Below are positions 51,255 through 57,223 of a stretch of 64,000 bases of DNA, piece by piece. Under the pieces are notes generated by a model. The model was not told where the DNA came from, searched no databases, and was given only the letters and a program-made list of their open reading frames with translations. Source of the DNA: Caldithrix abyssi (GTDB taxonomy: Bacteria; Calditrichota; Calditrichia; Calditrichales; Calditrichaceae); NCBI GenBank assembly GCA_011369465.1, contig DRQG01000034.1, positions 62,001-126,000 of the forward strand, written 5' to 3'. The translations under genes and the position numbers were made by a program. Each line of letters begins with the position of its first letter. Within the stretch, counting starts at the first letter, position 1.

Positions 51255-54200
51255 ATGTCAAAAAGACTTATCTTTTTACTTCAAATTGTTGTTTATTGTT
51301 TATTCTTCCTTCATACGGTAAGCAGTAAAGAAACAAGCATCCGTTTTGACCATCTCTCCACAGAAGACGGTCTTTCTTCATCAACCGTGTTTTCCATTGT
51401 TCAGGATCAGCAGGGATTTTTATGGTTTGGCACCATGCATGGATTGCATAAATACGATGGTTACCATATTGAAGTCTTTAAAAATGATCCGAATGATTCC
51501 AGCAGCGTTTCCAACAACAACTCCGGCAACCTCTTCGTGGATAGTAAAGGATTTCTCTGGATAGGCACATGGGGCGATGGATTGGATAAATTTGATCCCG
51601 TAAGCGGCAAAAAAATAAAACAGTATTTTCATGGAGCGCAAGATACCAATACGATCAGTGGAAATCGAGTCCAGTCCCTTTTTGAGGACAGCCAGGGGTA
51701 TTTATGGTTCGGTACTTATAAGGACGGGTTGAATCGTTTTAATCCGCAAAGCGGAAAATTTATTCATTTTAAGCATCAGGCCGGTGATCCCTCTTCGCTT
51801 AGCAATAACAGGATCTGGTCAATTAATGAAGATCAGCATGGCCGTATCTGGTTGGCAACCTCCAACGGGGTTAATGTTTATACACCGGGAAGCGACGGGT
51901 TTAAACAGTTTTTCCACCAACCCAATAATCCGGAATCGCTTAGCAGTAACTGGAGTCGGGTTGTGTACATCGATATGTATGGCGGAATATGGATAGGCAC
52001 ACAGAATGGCCTGAACAGGTACCATCCGGATACCGACACCTTCACGCGCTATCTTTACAAGCCCGATGCCAAAAACCAATATGGATGGTTTACCATAAAT
52101 TCTGTTTTAAGAAGCAAAACCTGCGGTGACTCGATCCTTTGGGTAGGCACCACGAGGGGATTTATTCGTCTTAATGTGAAAACAGGAAATTTTATTCGTT
52201 ACCAATATAACAAAATCGATCCCAACAGCCTTAGCGCAAATGATGTTCGTGATTTATACGAAGATAAATCCGGTATTATCTGGATAGCAACACGCGGTGG
52301 CGGTGTAAATAAATTTTATCCCACCCCCCAAAGTTTTAACCACTATGCACCCGATGTAAATAATCCGAACAGTCTGAGCAGCAGCCGGGTATGGGCTATT
52401 CAACCCGATTATGCTAAAAGGGGGGAAGAAATTGTCTGGATAGGAACCGATTACGGGCTGAATCGTTGGGATAAAACCACAAATACATTTAAACATTATT
52501 TCAACAATCCGAATGATCCTCACAGTATAAGTAACAATGAAATTTGGAGTATTTATAGGGATGAGCAGGGCACTATCTGGCTGGGCAGCCGATCTGGGTT
52601 AGACAGATACAATCGCAAAAGCGATTCCTTTACCCGTTTTGATCTGCGTAGCAAAGATGCCAGTAAACATTTAGGCGGAATATCTTCCATAAACAAGGTC
52701 AAAAGCCGGCCCGGATATTTATGGCTCACAGATTATAGCCGGGGACTATTTGTTTTTAACCCGGAAACGAATGAATTAAAACAATACCTGAACGATCCGA
52801 AAGATTCTTCCAGTATAAGCCATTCCGAAGTCTGGTGTGTTTACGAAGACGGCCATGGTAACGTTTGGATAGGCACCGGCGACGGATTAAACCTGATGGA
52901 TATACCCACCGGAACGTTTAAACGCATACCGGCTATGAGTGCAGGACAGCAGAACCACTTCCGCGTATATGCCATACATGAGGATAAAAACCATTATTTA
53001 TGGTTAGCAACTGATAACGGACTCTGGCGTTTTCATATAAAAACAAAACAATTTTTACAGTTCAGCGAAAAAGACGGTCTGCCCGATCAGCGTATTGTTG
53101 GTATTCTGGAGGACAGCGCTCATAATTTATGGCTGAGTACCAATAAAGGACTCTGTCGGTTTAACCCTGAAACATTTCAGTCTAAAATATATGGCACGCA
53201 GCATGGTCTGCAGAGCAACGAATTTTTGCCTGGCGCATATCGTAAATCGCCCAAAGGAGAATTTTTCTTTGGGGGAGTAAACGGGTTTAATATTTTCTTC
53301 CCGGATAAGCTATCGGAAAACAGGCATCCGCCTGAGGTCTTTATCACGGATCTGAAAATATTTAACCAATCTGTCAGGCCTTCCAAAAATAAAAACGGAA
53401 TTCTAAGAAAACCCCTTTCGGTTACCCGATTCCTGGAGCTTCCTTCCCGATACAATGTATTCTCGCTTGAATTTGTAGCGCTTGACTTCGTGGCTCCTAA
53501 GTATAACCGGTATGCCTATATGCTGGAAGGATTTGATCCGGATTGGATTTATACAGATGCTACACGGCGGTACGTTACCTATACAAATCTTGATCCGGGA
53601 GAATACACATTCAGGGTAAAGGCCAGCAATAGTGATCAAATCTGGAATGAAGCAGGCGCAGTATTAGGTATTGTTATAACGCCGCCCTTCTGGAAGACCT
53701 GGTGGTTTCGGATAACGGGTATTTTGTTTGCTGTGCTTGTCGGCTATGTTCTTTATTCAACACGGATAAAATACATTAAGAATCAAAAAGCTCTGCTCAA
53801 AGATTTGGTTGAAAAACGTACCAGCGCCCTTCAAAGTGAAATTCAGGAACATAAAAAAACCGAAAAGCAATTGCAGGAAGCTATTCAGGTTGCCTCAGAA
53901 GCCAATATGTTAAAAAGTCAATTTTTGGCCAATATGAGTCATGAAATCCGCACGCCTATGAACGGGGTCATCGGTATGATCCATCTTTTAAAGGAGTCGG
54001 GACTAAATCAGGAACAGAAGGAGTATGTATCTCTTCTAAACAGAAGTGCTAATTTTCTAATGGAAATTATCAATGACATTCTGGATTTCTCTAAAATAGA
54101 AGCCGGGGGAATGGAGCTGGAAAATATTGATTTTAAACTGGGTGAGACCATAGAAAATATTTGTGAACTGGCGGCCATAAAGGCTTCCGAAAAAAAATTA

Positions 54201-55433
54201 CAATTTTATTGCCTCATAAAAAATGATATCCCCGATCTTCTTAAGGGTGATCCTCTACGCTTAAGACAAATATTGCTTAATTTGATATCCAACGCGATTA
54301 AATTTACGGAGAAAGGCGGTATATCCATTGAAGTGGCCAAAATTAAAGAAAACGATCAACGGGTTAAGCTGGCTTTTTCCGTCCATGATACGGGTATTGG
54401 CATACCGCCCGATGCCATAGGTAAGTTATTCCGATCCTTCTCCCAGGTAGATGGCTCCACTACACGTAAGTACGGCGGTACCGGTTTGGGCCTGGCCATA
54501 TCCAAAGAATTGGTAGATCTTATGGGCGGCACGATAAAGGTTAAAAGCGATGTCGGGAAAGGATCTACATTTTGGATTATTCTGGAATTCGATAAACAGA
54601 CTGAGATAGTGACTCCTTCATCCAGGCCAGATTTATCCGGGAAGCGGGCTTTGATCGCAAATCCTTATTCCGGAAATTTGGCCGTTCTGGAAGAATATCT
54701 GAATGATTTTAAGTGCCGGGTGCTCTCCACCCAGAGTTTGGCAGAAATGATGCTTTTTTTGGAGAAAGAGGAAGCGTTTGATTTTGTTTTTACCGATATC
54801 GAATTGCCCGGATTCAATGAAGCCATCCTGACTTCTCTTTCAAAATATAGCCTTAATAAACTTATTCTAACCGCACCTGTGGGTACGATCAATCCTTACC
54901 AGGAGTTTGTAAATAAGGGAGCCTGTTCAAGTTTAACCCGACCGATAAAACGAACCGCCTTAAAACAAATTTTAAATAATCAATATGCAGAAAAATCCGG
55001 AAATGATTTGGCAAACAAGGCAACGGTTCGTACAGATGAACCCGAACAAGAATACTCGATCTTACTGGCCGAAGACAATTTAATTAATCAAAAATTGATC
55101 ATCCGTTTGGTTGAAAAAATGGGCTATAAAATTCATGCCGTAGTAAATGGTAAGCTGGCGATCGAAGCGTTAAAAGAAGAATCGTACGATTTGGTTTTAA
55201 TGGATTTACAAATGCCGGAGATGGATGGCATCAAAGCCGCCCAATATATCCGACAGAAAGATTCCGGTGTTATTAATCCGCAAATACCCATTGTAGCCCT
55301 TACGGCAAATATTCGTAAAGAAGACCGGGAAGCCTGCTTTGCTGCCGGAATGAATGATTTTTTAACCAAACCAATCAAAATAGAAGAACTGAAAAATACC
55401 CTGCGCAAACATCTCTCATCCAACCCGAAATAA
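51255..55433 (+). CDS. Giant hybrid histidine kinase with periplasmic two-component propeller
   Basis: The 1392-residue protein has a signal peptide (about 1-24), a large periplasmic region of Reg_prop propeller repeats (about 25-700; recurrent GLNRY/WIGT/LWFGT), a Y_Y_Y domain (about 740-810), one membrane helix (about 815-840), a coiled coil, HisKA with His896 in [12 protein letters not shown], HATPase_c ([17 protein letters not shown]), a first receiver lacking its acidic pair (IANPYSG) and a second with phospho-acceptor Asp1317 in [11 protein letters not shown]. Unlike typical Bacteroidota HTCS regulators there is no AraC-type DNA-binding domain, so its output must lie in another protein. 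The propeller probably senses a polysaccharide or similar ligand (family knowledge). A single gene on the plus strand. Confidence 0.92.
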   Translation: MSKRLIFLLQIVVYCLFFLHTVSSKETSIRFDHLSTEDGLSSSTVFSIVQDQQGFLWFGTMHGLHKYDGYHIEVFKNDPNDSSSVSNNNSGNLFVDSKGFLWIGTWGDGLDKFDPVSGKKIKQYFHGAQDTNTISGNRVQSLFEDSQGYLWFGTYKDGLNRFNPQSGKFIHFKHQAGDPSSLSNNRIWSINEDQHGRIWLATSNGVNVYTPGSDGFKQFFHQPNNPESLSSNWSRVVYIDMYGGIWIGTQNGLNRYHPDTDTFTRYLYKPDAKNQYGWFTINSVLRSKTCGDSILWVGTTRGFIRLNVKTGNFIRYQYNKIDPNSLSANDVRDLYEDKSGIIWIATRGGGVNKFYPTPQSFNHYAPDVNNPNSLSSSRVWAIQPDYAKRGEEIVWIGTDYGLNRWDKTTNTFKHYFNNPNDPHSISNNEIWSIYRDEQGTIWLGSRSGLDRYNRKSDSFTRFDLRSKDASKHLGGISSINKVKSRPGYLWLTDYSRGLFVFNPETNELKQYLNDPKDSSSISHSEVWCVYEDGHGNVWIGTGDGLNLMDIPTGTFKRIPAMSAGQQNHFRVYAIHEDKNHYLWLATDNGLWRFHIKTKQFLQFSEKDGLPDQRIVGILEDSAHNLWLSTNKGLCRFNPETFQSKIYGTQHGLQSNEFLPGAYRKSPKGEFFFGGVNGFNIFFPDKLSENRHPPEVFITDLKIFNQSVRPSKNKNGILRKPLSVTRFLELPSRYNVFSLEFVALDFVAPKYNRYAYMLEGFDPDWIYTDATRRYVTYTNLDPGEYTFRVKASNSDQIWNEAGAVLGIVITPPFWKTWWFRITGILFAVLVGYVLYSTRIKYIKNQKALLKDLVEKRTSALQSEIQEHKKTEKQLQEAIQVASEANMLKSQFLANMSHEIRTPMNGVIGMIHLLKESGLNQEQKEYVSLLNRSANFLMEIINDILDFSKIEAGGMELENIDFKLGETIENICELAAIKASEKKLQFYCLIKNDIPDLLKGDPLRLRQILLNLISNAIKFTEKGGISIEVAKIKENDQRVKLAFSVHDTGIGIPPDAIGKLFRSFSQVDGSTTRKYGGTGLGLAISKELVDLMGGTIKVKSDVGKGSTFWIILEFDKQTEIVTPSSRPDLSGKRALIANPYSGNLAVLEEYLNDFKCRVLSTQSLAEMMLFLEKEEAFDFVFTDIELPGFNEAILTSLSKYSLNKLILTAPVGTINPYQEFVNKGACSSLTRPIKRTALKQILNNQYAEKSGNDLANKATVRTDEPEQEYSILLAEDNLINQKLIIRLVEKMGYKIHAVVNGKLAIEALKEESYDLVLMDLQMPEMDGIKAAQYIRQKDSGVINPQIPIVALTANIRKEDREACFAAGMNDFLTKPIKIEELKNTLRKHLSSNPK

Positions 55434-55550
55434 GCCTTTATCCCCTTTAAAATTAATAGCTTTTGTACTTAATAATTTTTATATTCCAATCGTTCGTTTA
55501 CATTCACATTTCAGAATTTATTTTGATAATCAACAAGTAGGAGAACCGAA

Positions 55551-55904
55551 ATGATCCGTTTGTACGGCGTTCCTTCCTGAGGCCAGATTCGCAAAAGCAG
55601 GTCGCTTTTTGAAGAAAAAGGAATTGAATACGAATTCGTCAACGTAAAAAAAACACCCGTTTCTATGGAGCAACTACGGGAAATTGCCGGTCAATTGGGA
55701 GTATGGTCCATAACCAACAGCAAAGGCCCCACTTTTCGTAAATTAGGGCTTAAAGGCAAAGATTTAAGCGACGACGAATTACTGGAGTGGCTGCACAAGG
55801 AACAAGGGATGATCAAACGCCCTTTAATTGAAAAAGACGGCACATATTGGGTAGGCGAAAAGGGATTTGATGAAGAGGCCATTCTTAATTTCATAAATAA
55901 CTAA
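55551..55904 (+). CDS. Selenocysteine-containing ArsC/Spx-like protein (TGA decoded as Sec)
   Basis: From ATG 55551 (ribosome site AGGAG about 8 bases upstream) the frame runs 117 residues with one in-frame TGA (55578-55580, residue 10). Read as Sec it gives MIRLYGVPSUGQIRKSRS, where U falls on the catalytic Cys of ArsC (as in CGTSRN of E. coli ArsC). The rest is a normal thioredoxin-fold ArsC/Spx domain: FEEKGIEYEFVNVKKTP, GQLGVWSITNS, GPTFRKLGLKGKDLS, MIKRPLIEKDG and WVGEKGFDEE. A SECIS-like hairpin follows the TGA. Arsenate reductase or redox regulator function is likely; the mechanism is inferred. Automatic annotation would reject the N-terminus or start at 55665. sel genes are not in the window. 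Confidence 0.82.
55588..55613 (+). promoter_or_regulatory. Bacterial SECIS-like hairpin after TGA
   Basis: The mRNA hairpin pairs UUCG (55588-55591) and AAAAGC (55593-55598) with GCUUUU (55604-55609) and UGAA (55610-55613), with one G-U pair and a bulged C at 55592, and closes on the loop AGGUC (55599-55603). The loop begins 18 bases after the TGA. In E. coli fdhF the loop AGGUCU begins 17 bases after UGA and its G-U pair is bound by SelB (established knowledge). The bulged U of fdhF is not reproduced; here the bulge is a C lower in the stem. Confidence 0.75.
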
Positions 55905-55945: not shown

Positions 55946-57223
55946 ATGGCACAATTAACCGCTGTTATTCTGGGTGGCGGAAGGGGAACACGGCTCGATC
56001 CTCTGACCCGTATGCGCGCTAAACCGGCCGTTCCCATCGGCGGTAAATTCCGTTTGATTGATATTCCCATGAGTAATTGTCTGCACTCCGGAGTGCGAAA
56101 CATTTTTATTTTGACCCAGTTTAATACCGAGTCACTCCACCGGCATATTTACAATACCTACCGTTTCGATCAGTTCAGCAAGGGGTTTGTGCGTATTCTG
56201 GCTGCCCAACAAACCAGCGATAACCAGGATTGGTATCAGGGTACGGCTGATGCGGTGCGTAAAAACCTGCGTTTCCTCAAATCCGCCGATGAACATATTA
56301 TCATTCTTTCGGGCGATCATTTATACCGAATGGATTACCGCAAATTTTTTCAACACCACCTGGATACCAATGCGGATATTACCATTGCCGTTAAACCGAT
56401 AAACCGGCAGGAAGCCTCCGAGTTCGGTATCCTTAAAGTGAACGGTGACTTTAGGATCACAGACTTTGTGGAAAAACCAAAAGAAGATGACATTCTGGAC
56501 GCCTATCAAACCGAACCAACCCTCTTCGAAAAATTTGAAATTGAAACGCATGGGAGAACACACCTGGCTTCCATGGGCATTTATATTTTCCGCAAAGAAG
56601 CTCTGTTTGATGTGCTGTCCGATAATACAAAAGAAGATTTCGGCAAAGAGGTCATTCCCGATAATCTGAAAAACAAAAATGTGTACGCCTATTTTTTTGA
56701 CGGGTATTGGGAAGATATCGGAACAATGAGGGCCTTTTTTGAAGCCCATTTCGAACTTACCCAGCCCGTGCCGCGCTTTAATTTTTATGACGAAGATTAT
56801 CCCTTTTATACACACGCACGCTTTTTACCGGCATCCAAAATTTACAACTGCCAGATTAATCAGTCGCTTATTGCAGAAGGTTCCATTTTACTGGGTTCCA
56901 TCATAGAGCATTCCGTAGTGGGCATTCGCGCATTCATCGATGAAGGAACCTACGTCCAGCGTTCTGTTATTATGGGTAATTCGTATTATGAGACCATCAA
57001 AGACCGCAATCGCAATAAAAACGAGCATGTGCCCAACCTGGGTATAGGCAATAATTGCATTATCCGTAACGCCATTATCGATATGGATTGTAAAATTGGC
57101 AACAATGTACAATTGATCAACAAGGATAACTTGCAAGACGCCGATACCGATCTGTATTCCATTCATGACGGTATCATCATTATACCAAAAGGGACGGTCA
57201 TACCGCCTTATACAATTATTTAA
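55946..57223 (+). CDS. glgC: Glucose-1-phosphate adenylyltransferase
   Basis: The 425-residue protein is a full-length ADP-glucose pyrophosphorylase: the N-terminal nucleotide-binding GGGRGTRLDPLT (about 10-21), the RAKPAVPIGGKFRLIDIPMSNC segment (split over residues 24-45), the catalytic region LSGDHLYRMDYR, the substrate motif FVEKPKE and the C-terminal left-handed beta helix. It makes ADP-glucose for glycogen and is usually allosterically controlled. It is followed by the M14 gene whose GTG is 26 bases past its stop; no other glg gene is in view. Confidence 0.96.
   Translation: MAQLTAVILGGGRGTRLDPLTRMRAKPAVPIGGKFRLIDIPMSNCLHSGVRNIFILTQFNTESLHRHIYNTYRFDQFSKGFVRILAAQQTSDNQDWYQGTADAVRKNLRFLKSADEHIIILSGDHLYRMDYRKFFQHHLDTNADITIAVKPINRQEASEFGILKVNGDFRITDFVEKPKEDDILDAYQTEPTLFEKFEIETHGRTHLASMGIYIFRKEALFDVLSDNTKEDFGKEVIPDNLKNKNVYAYFFDGYWEDIGTMRAFFEAHFELTQPVPRFNFYDEDYPFYTHARFLPASKIYNCQINQSLIAEGSILLGSIIEHSVVGIRAFIDEGTYVQRSVIMGNSYYETIKDRNRNKNEHVPNLGIGNNCIIRNAIIDMDCKIGNNVQLINKDNLQDADTDLYSIHDGIIIIPKGTVIPPYTII

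Follow-up and report, generated by a model that had tools for sequence, protein, structure and literature searches.

Identification of a UGA-interrupted reading frame

The window (the whole 64,000-nt stretch of DNA analyzed here) contains, at positions 55551–55904 of the forward strand, a gene for a putative YffB/ArsC-like selenoprotein of 117 aa (MIRLYGVPS-U-GQIRK...), assigned from its reading frame, its profile scores and an AlphaFold model of its product. The frame reads MIRLYGVPS*GQIRKSRSLFEEKGIEYEF...NFINN, with a single TGA at codon 10 (55578–55580, forward strand) and a terminal TAA at 55902–55904, the first stop codon to follow that TGA. When codon 10 is read as Sec, the protein contains one Sec and zero Cys and carries the motif UxxI. 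The sequence itself shows a ribosome binding site, AGGAG (about 55539–55543, forward strand), 7 nt ahead of the ATG at 55551. A preliminary description of this DNA had noted an ATG with a good ribosome site and a TGA at codon 10 as the sole interruption of the frame, located where ArsC-like proteins carry their catalytic Cys; the sequence and the alignment of homologues bear this out, with codon 10 falling on the column of the catalytic Cys in the ArsC/Spx/YffB family. Its warning that a standard annotation would lose the N terminus and the active site was also accurate, as ORF calling with translation table 11 yields just a 79-aa frame from the ATG at 55665, from which 38 residues and the active site are missing. 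The TGA is followed by a hairpin resembling a bacterial SECIS element (55593–55609, forward strand; loop at 55599–55603), and the gene itself, after a gap of 41 nt, by glgC, encoding glucose-1-phosphate adenylyltransferase (55946–57223, forward strand; 607 bits to NF002772, over the cut-off), which on the basis of its adjacency is a probable operon partner. Upstream, a large protein that appears by eye to be a hybrid histidine kinase is encoded at 51255–55433 (forward strand), between a serine-hydrolase gene and the selenoprotein gene; this gene is missing at the equivalent place in relatives with the same upstream gene.

Codon 10 in homologues

A search of relatives combined with a search of the whole class yielded 19 close homologues from the order. 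Four of these, from the genome carrying the window (G000) and from genomes G003, G006 and G011, which together represent three genera, have TGA as codon 10; the remaining 15 have TGT or TGC, and none of the 19 has an unrelated residue at this position. The sequence is conserved on both sides of the UGA and the UGA is aligned with the Cys of the homologues, which is the pattern by which a selenoprotein gene is recognized. The 21-row alignment contains 10 invariant columns, including R90-P91 and column 10 (occupied by Cys or by Sec, the latter written as Cys). The sister family f2, in whose six genomes no tRNA-Sec was detectable, has a Cys codon at position 10 throughout.

The history of the Cys and Sec forms within this set appears to involve either two gains of Sec or one gain followed by losses, as the tree of this short protein is compatible with both. 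The best tree implies two changes: it groups the window protein with three Cys proteins, those of G008, G009 and G010 (76/76), and a 3-residue insert near residues 102–105 is common to the same four proteins. Forcing the Sec proteins into a single clade costs 1.69 log units, with a p-AU of 0.17 for this short protein tree. A further search of contigs recovered only distant Cys relatives, mostly from Bacteroidota.

A conserved hairpin downstream of the UGA codon

The hairpin AAAAGC-AGGUC-GCUUUU consists of a 6-bp stem and a 5-nt loop that begins 18 nt after the UGA. The published bSECIS model calls for an upper stem of 4–16 bp and a loop of 3–9 nt located 16–37 nt from the UGA, with a G in the first two loop positions in the pattern N-G-[G or U] (PMC13188914), and the window hairpin agrees with it in stem, loop, position of the G and spacing. 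The three other TGA genes form the hairpin AAAACC-CGUGC-GGUUUU at the same position without alignment gaps. Both loop types have G as the second base followed by G or U and lie 16–37 nt from the UGA. Counted from the loop, the second pair differs between the two types: the window gene has G-C, and G003, G006 and G011 have C-G, a compensatory difference indicating that this pair has been maintained through changes on both sides. The preliminary description had reported the AGGUC loop 18 bases past the TGA; the sequence agrees, and the hairpin is kept in exactly those genes that bear the TGA. When compared in the same register, all six pairs and the G at loop position 2 are found in 4/4 TGA homologues and in 0/15 Cys homologues, the latter forming 2–5 pairs and never six (n = 15), and this register is unique among about 250 in giving 6/6 pairs in every one of the four TGA genes. 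A Mann-Whitney test of pairing in TGA versus Cys genes gives p = 0.0012, a value that overstates the difference because three of the four Sec genes belong to one clade, leaving effectively two lineages.

The window hairpin taken singly has a modest energy and is not significant against shuffled sequences. The preliminary description had proposed an RNAfold check on positions 55578–55620, but this turned out to be uninformative by itself: folding of these 43 nt gives z = +0.05, with a different structure as the MFE (−6.9 kcal/mol). When the 36 nt that follow the UGA are folded, the hairpin emerges as the MFE structure at −6.5 kcal/mol, with a stem-pair probability of 0.91. Both energies are to be set against the bSECIS model value of ≤ −7.5 kcal/mol, for which no prescribed folding length was found; in G006, the selD gene with its TGA likewise reaches just −6.2 kcal/mol. 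With synonymous recoding of the window gene, 4.2% of draws had a stem of the same length, and single Sec genes treated in this way gave p = 0.02–0.22. Judged from these sequences, the hairpin is above chance level on comparative evidence and weak if one sequence is considered.

Selenocysteine machinery

The preliminary description had suggested looking for selA, selB, selC and selD elsewhere in the genome. All four are present in G000 (4.31 Mb in 161 contigs, 98.5% complete) with scores over their cut-offs: selA (507 bits, contig C55), selB (346 bits, contig C131), selD (369 bits, contig C153) and tRNA-Sec with anticodon TCA (70.9 bits, contig C69). The G000 selD gene contains an in-frame UGA at its usual Sec site (CAG-U-ASK) and a hairpin with a GGU loop, independently pointing to the decoding of UGA as Sec in this genome, and a TGA-containing selD was found in all 13 genomes of the family that were searched. 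Of the other genomes with a TGA gene, G011 (72% complete) yielded no tRNA-Sec and G003 (89% complete) no selB. Genome by genome, selD (loci L091 and L121–L123) and the YffB-like gene (55599–55603 in the window) were observed to agree in their SECIS loops, the selD loop having GG in G000 (AGGUU) and GU in G003, G006 and G011 (AGUUA). This agreement may reflect the loop preference of SelB, and counts as a single event since the latter three genomes form one clade.

Decoding of the UGA codon

Several explanations of the TGA other than Sec were considered. A nonsense change in an ordinary Cys gene, whether it marks a pseudogene or a sequencing or assembly error, has in its favor that G000 is a draft of 161 contigs and that one base separates TGA from TGC or TGT. 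Four genomes from three genera share the TGA at this codon, which cannot be explained by a read error in a single assembly, and the frame downstream is intact, with the other three TGA proteins 59–62% identical to that of the window; together with a stem whose pairing is preserved by compensatory change, these observations make a defective or misread gene most improbable. It is just as hard to credit that translation really ends at the UGA and that the 79-aa frame obtained by ORF calling is the real product, as such a protein would have neither the active site nor the initial beta-alpha-beta unit of a fold that starts at residue 2, codons 1–38 are conserved across the family, and a ribosome binding site precedes the ATG at 55551. 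Readthrough of UGA without a SECIS element occurs in some organisms, and the codon could in principle be suppressed as another amino acid such as Trp or Cys. Against this stand the complete Sec system of G000, whose selD has a UGA of its own, the restriction of the SECIS-like hairpin to the TGA genes and the fact that Cys is the only alternative residue at this position, so that suppression by another amino acid is also very improbable. All three explanations were rejected on the basis of the TGA in four genomes, the conserved N terminus, and the Sec system with its hairpin.

The gene at 55551–55904 thus very probably encodes a selenoprotein with its own SECIS element. The proposal of a Sec enzyme in the preliminary description gains support, at the level of sequence, from the Sec machinery, from codon 10 of the homologues and from a SECIS conserved with a compensatory pair. 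By this reading, SelB carrying Sec-tRNA-Sec would bind the hairpin 18 nt past the UGA via its G-[G/U] loop, Sec would be inserted at codon 10, and translation would run on to the TAA at 55902 to give the 117-residue protein.

Family, fold and likely function

The preliminary description had placed the protein in the ArsC/Spx family. Membership in the ArsC superfamily holds, with scores of 51.4 bits to PF03960 (cut-off 24) and 81.1 bits to TIGR01617 (arsC_related; cut-off 75.05); within it the protein is YffB-like, and neither a classical arsenate reductase nor an Spx protein. Its AlphaFold model is a confident thioredoxin fold (pLDDT 95.3) running from residue 2, for which the best PDB match is YffB (1rw1, TM 0.87); 1rw1 and its relatives are nearest by both sequence and fold. 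YffB of Brucella possesses one Cys in the motif GX3CX3K and one of the three arginines that make up the ArsC triad, and binds glutathione (PMC3169414). Like the YffB proteins of P. aeruginosa (1rw1) and B. melitensis (2kok), the window protein has a single redox residue and one arginine, its GX3UX3R motif and R90 corresponding to GX3CX3[K/R] in YffB with Sec in place of Cys. It is not a strict member of that group, as it scores 54.1 bits to NF008107 (PRK10853, ArsC family reductase; cut-off 121) even though its sequence and fold are closest to those of YffB. With Spx/MgsR (TIGR01617) it shares the fold and a score over the cut-off, but it does not have the CXXC redox switch (UxxI instead) and falls well below the cut-offs of Spx-specific models (46.2 versus 123 bits for Spx).

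Because the protein contains no Cys, Sec is its sole redox residue, and this single redox residue, together with GX3UX3R and R90 as found in YffB, favors a thiol reductase over arsenate reduction or Spx-type regulation. By analogy with YffB, it is probably a one-selenol thiol reductase of the glutathione type, with an external thiol as its resolving partner. Its selenol would most likely attack a disulfide or other oxidized substrate, after which such a thiol, of low molecular weight, or else thioredoxin/glutaredoxin could regenerate it, as proposed for single-Cys YffB. A classical ArsC arsenate reductase would accord with the PF03960 score over the cut-off and with the ArsC structures that also match the fold at a TM of about 0.8. 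This function appears unlikely given a score of just 49.8 bits to the TIGR00014 arsenate reductase model (cut-off 106) and an active site in which R90, invariant in the alignment, is the only arginine of the triad to be kept, the Arg60 position being apparently Asn; in addition, no arsenic genes were found among the neighbors scanned.

Genomic neighborhood

Of the 15 loci examined, 12, spanning both families (f1 and f2), have glgC directly downstream in the same orientation, and no terminator-like site was found in the 41-nt gap in the window. On the contigs examined, this adjacency is absent in G006, G010 and G011. As two of these (G006 and G011) are among the four genomes with a Sec gene, the connection to glgC is weakened, and a role in glycogen metabolism, for example in redox control of GlgC, is suggested by adjacency as a rather doubtful possibility. 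Less likely again is a broader scheme in which the UxxI and UxxV proteins would form an unlisted one-selenol YffB-like class that arose by at least two gains in one family, each through a separate SECIS in codons 15–20, and that is coupled to glgC as a selenoenzyme setting the redox state of glycogen synthesis. A conserved protein of ~560 aa (L107:1823–3520, reverse strand) with no Pfam or NCBIfam match has homologs in 10 of the 15 loci; in most of the f1 and f2 genomes examined it adjoins glgC or the YffB-like gene.

Relation to known ArsC-type selenoproteins

As the preliminary description had stated, ArsC-like selenoproteins have already been reported from marine metagenomes. They are of UxxS (Sargasso Sea, GOS) and UxxC (GOS) forms. 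The UxxS protein was reported in 2005 (PMC1088965) and a second ArsC-type selenoprotein, UxxC, in 2008 (PMC2398784); the GOS "Arsenate reductase 2" (cd03032) is likewise UxxC. The window protein shares with the UxxS Sec arsenate reductase (COG1393/TIGR00014; GOS "ArsC 1") the ArsC fold, the placement of Sec on the catalytic Cys and a bacterial SECIS that immediately follows the UGA (PMC1088965, PMC2398784). It differs in its UxxI motif, its score far below the TIGR00014 cut-off and its one triad arginine. Both it and the NF041106 ArsC family (seleno)protein (ArsC_rel_Se_1, UxxC) are small and ArsC/Spx-like with an N-terminal Sec, but the window protein scores 25.8 bits to this model (cut-off 85) and is without the resolving Cys at +3. 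A 2026 review of selenoproteins gives the ArsC type as UxxS/TIGR00014 and UxxC/NF041106 only. Since UxxI is not listed there and the protein falls below the cut-offs of both models, its sequence marks it as an unlisted UxxI subtype of the known ArsC-type selenoproteins and not a new kind. A literature search combining Calditrichota with selenocysteine found no text.

The ArsC-fold selenoproteins hereby gain an unlisted Sec motif, UxxI, without a second redox residue, in a gene of a sort that standard ORF calling truncates. Sec orthologs with the hairpin and Cys orthologs without it, occurring in sister genera, provide a clean natural comparison, useful for the study of how a coding sequence acquires a SECIS and of the role of Sec in a YffB enzyme.

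Further TGA-containing relatives were observed in the course of this work. One from a distant genome outside the order (L148:1501–1833, genome G246), a second case of a one-selenol protein, has the motif UxxV, a TGA and a hairpin with a GGUC loop, and scores 79.7 bits to TIGR01617, over the cut-off. Two others, L048 (G070) and L149 (G196), are UxxC relatives with TGA on the catalytic column; L048 is below the TIGR01617 cut-off, and NF041106 is absent from its matches.
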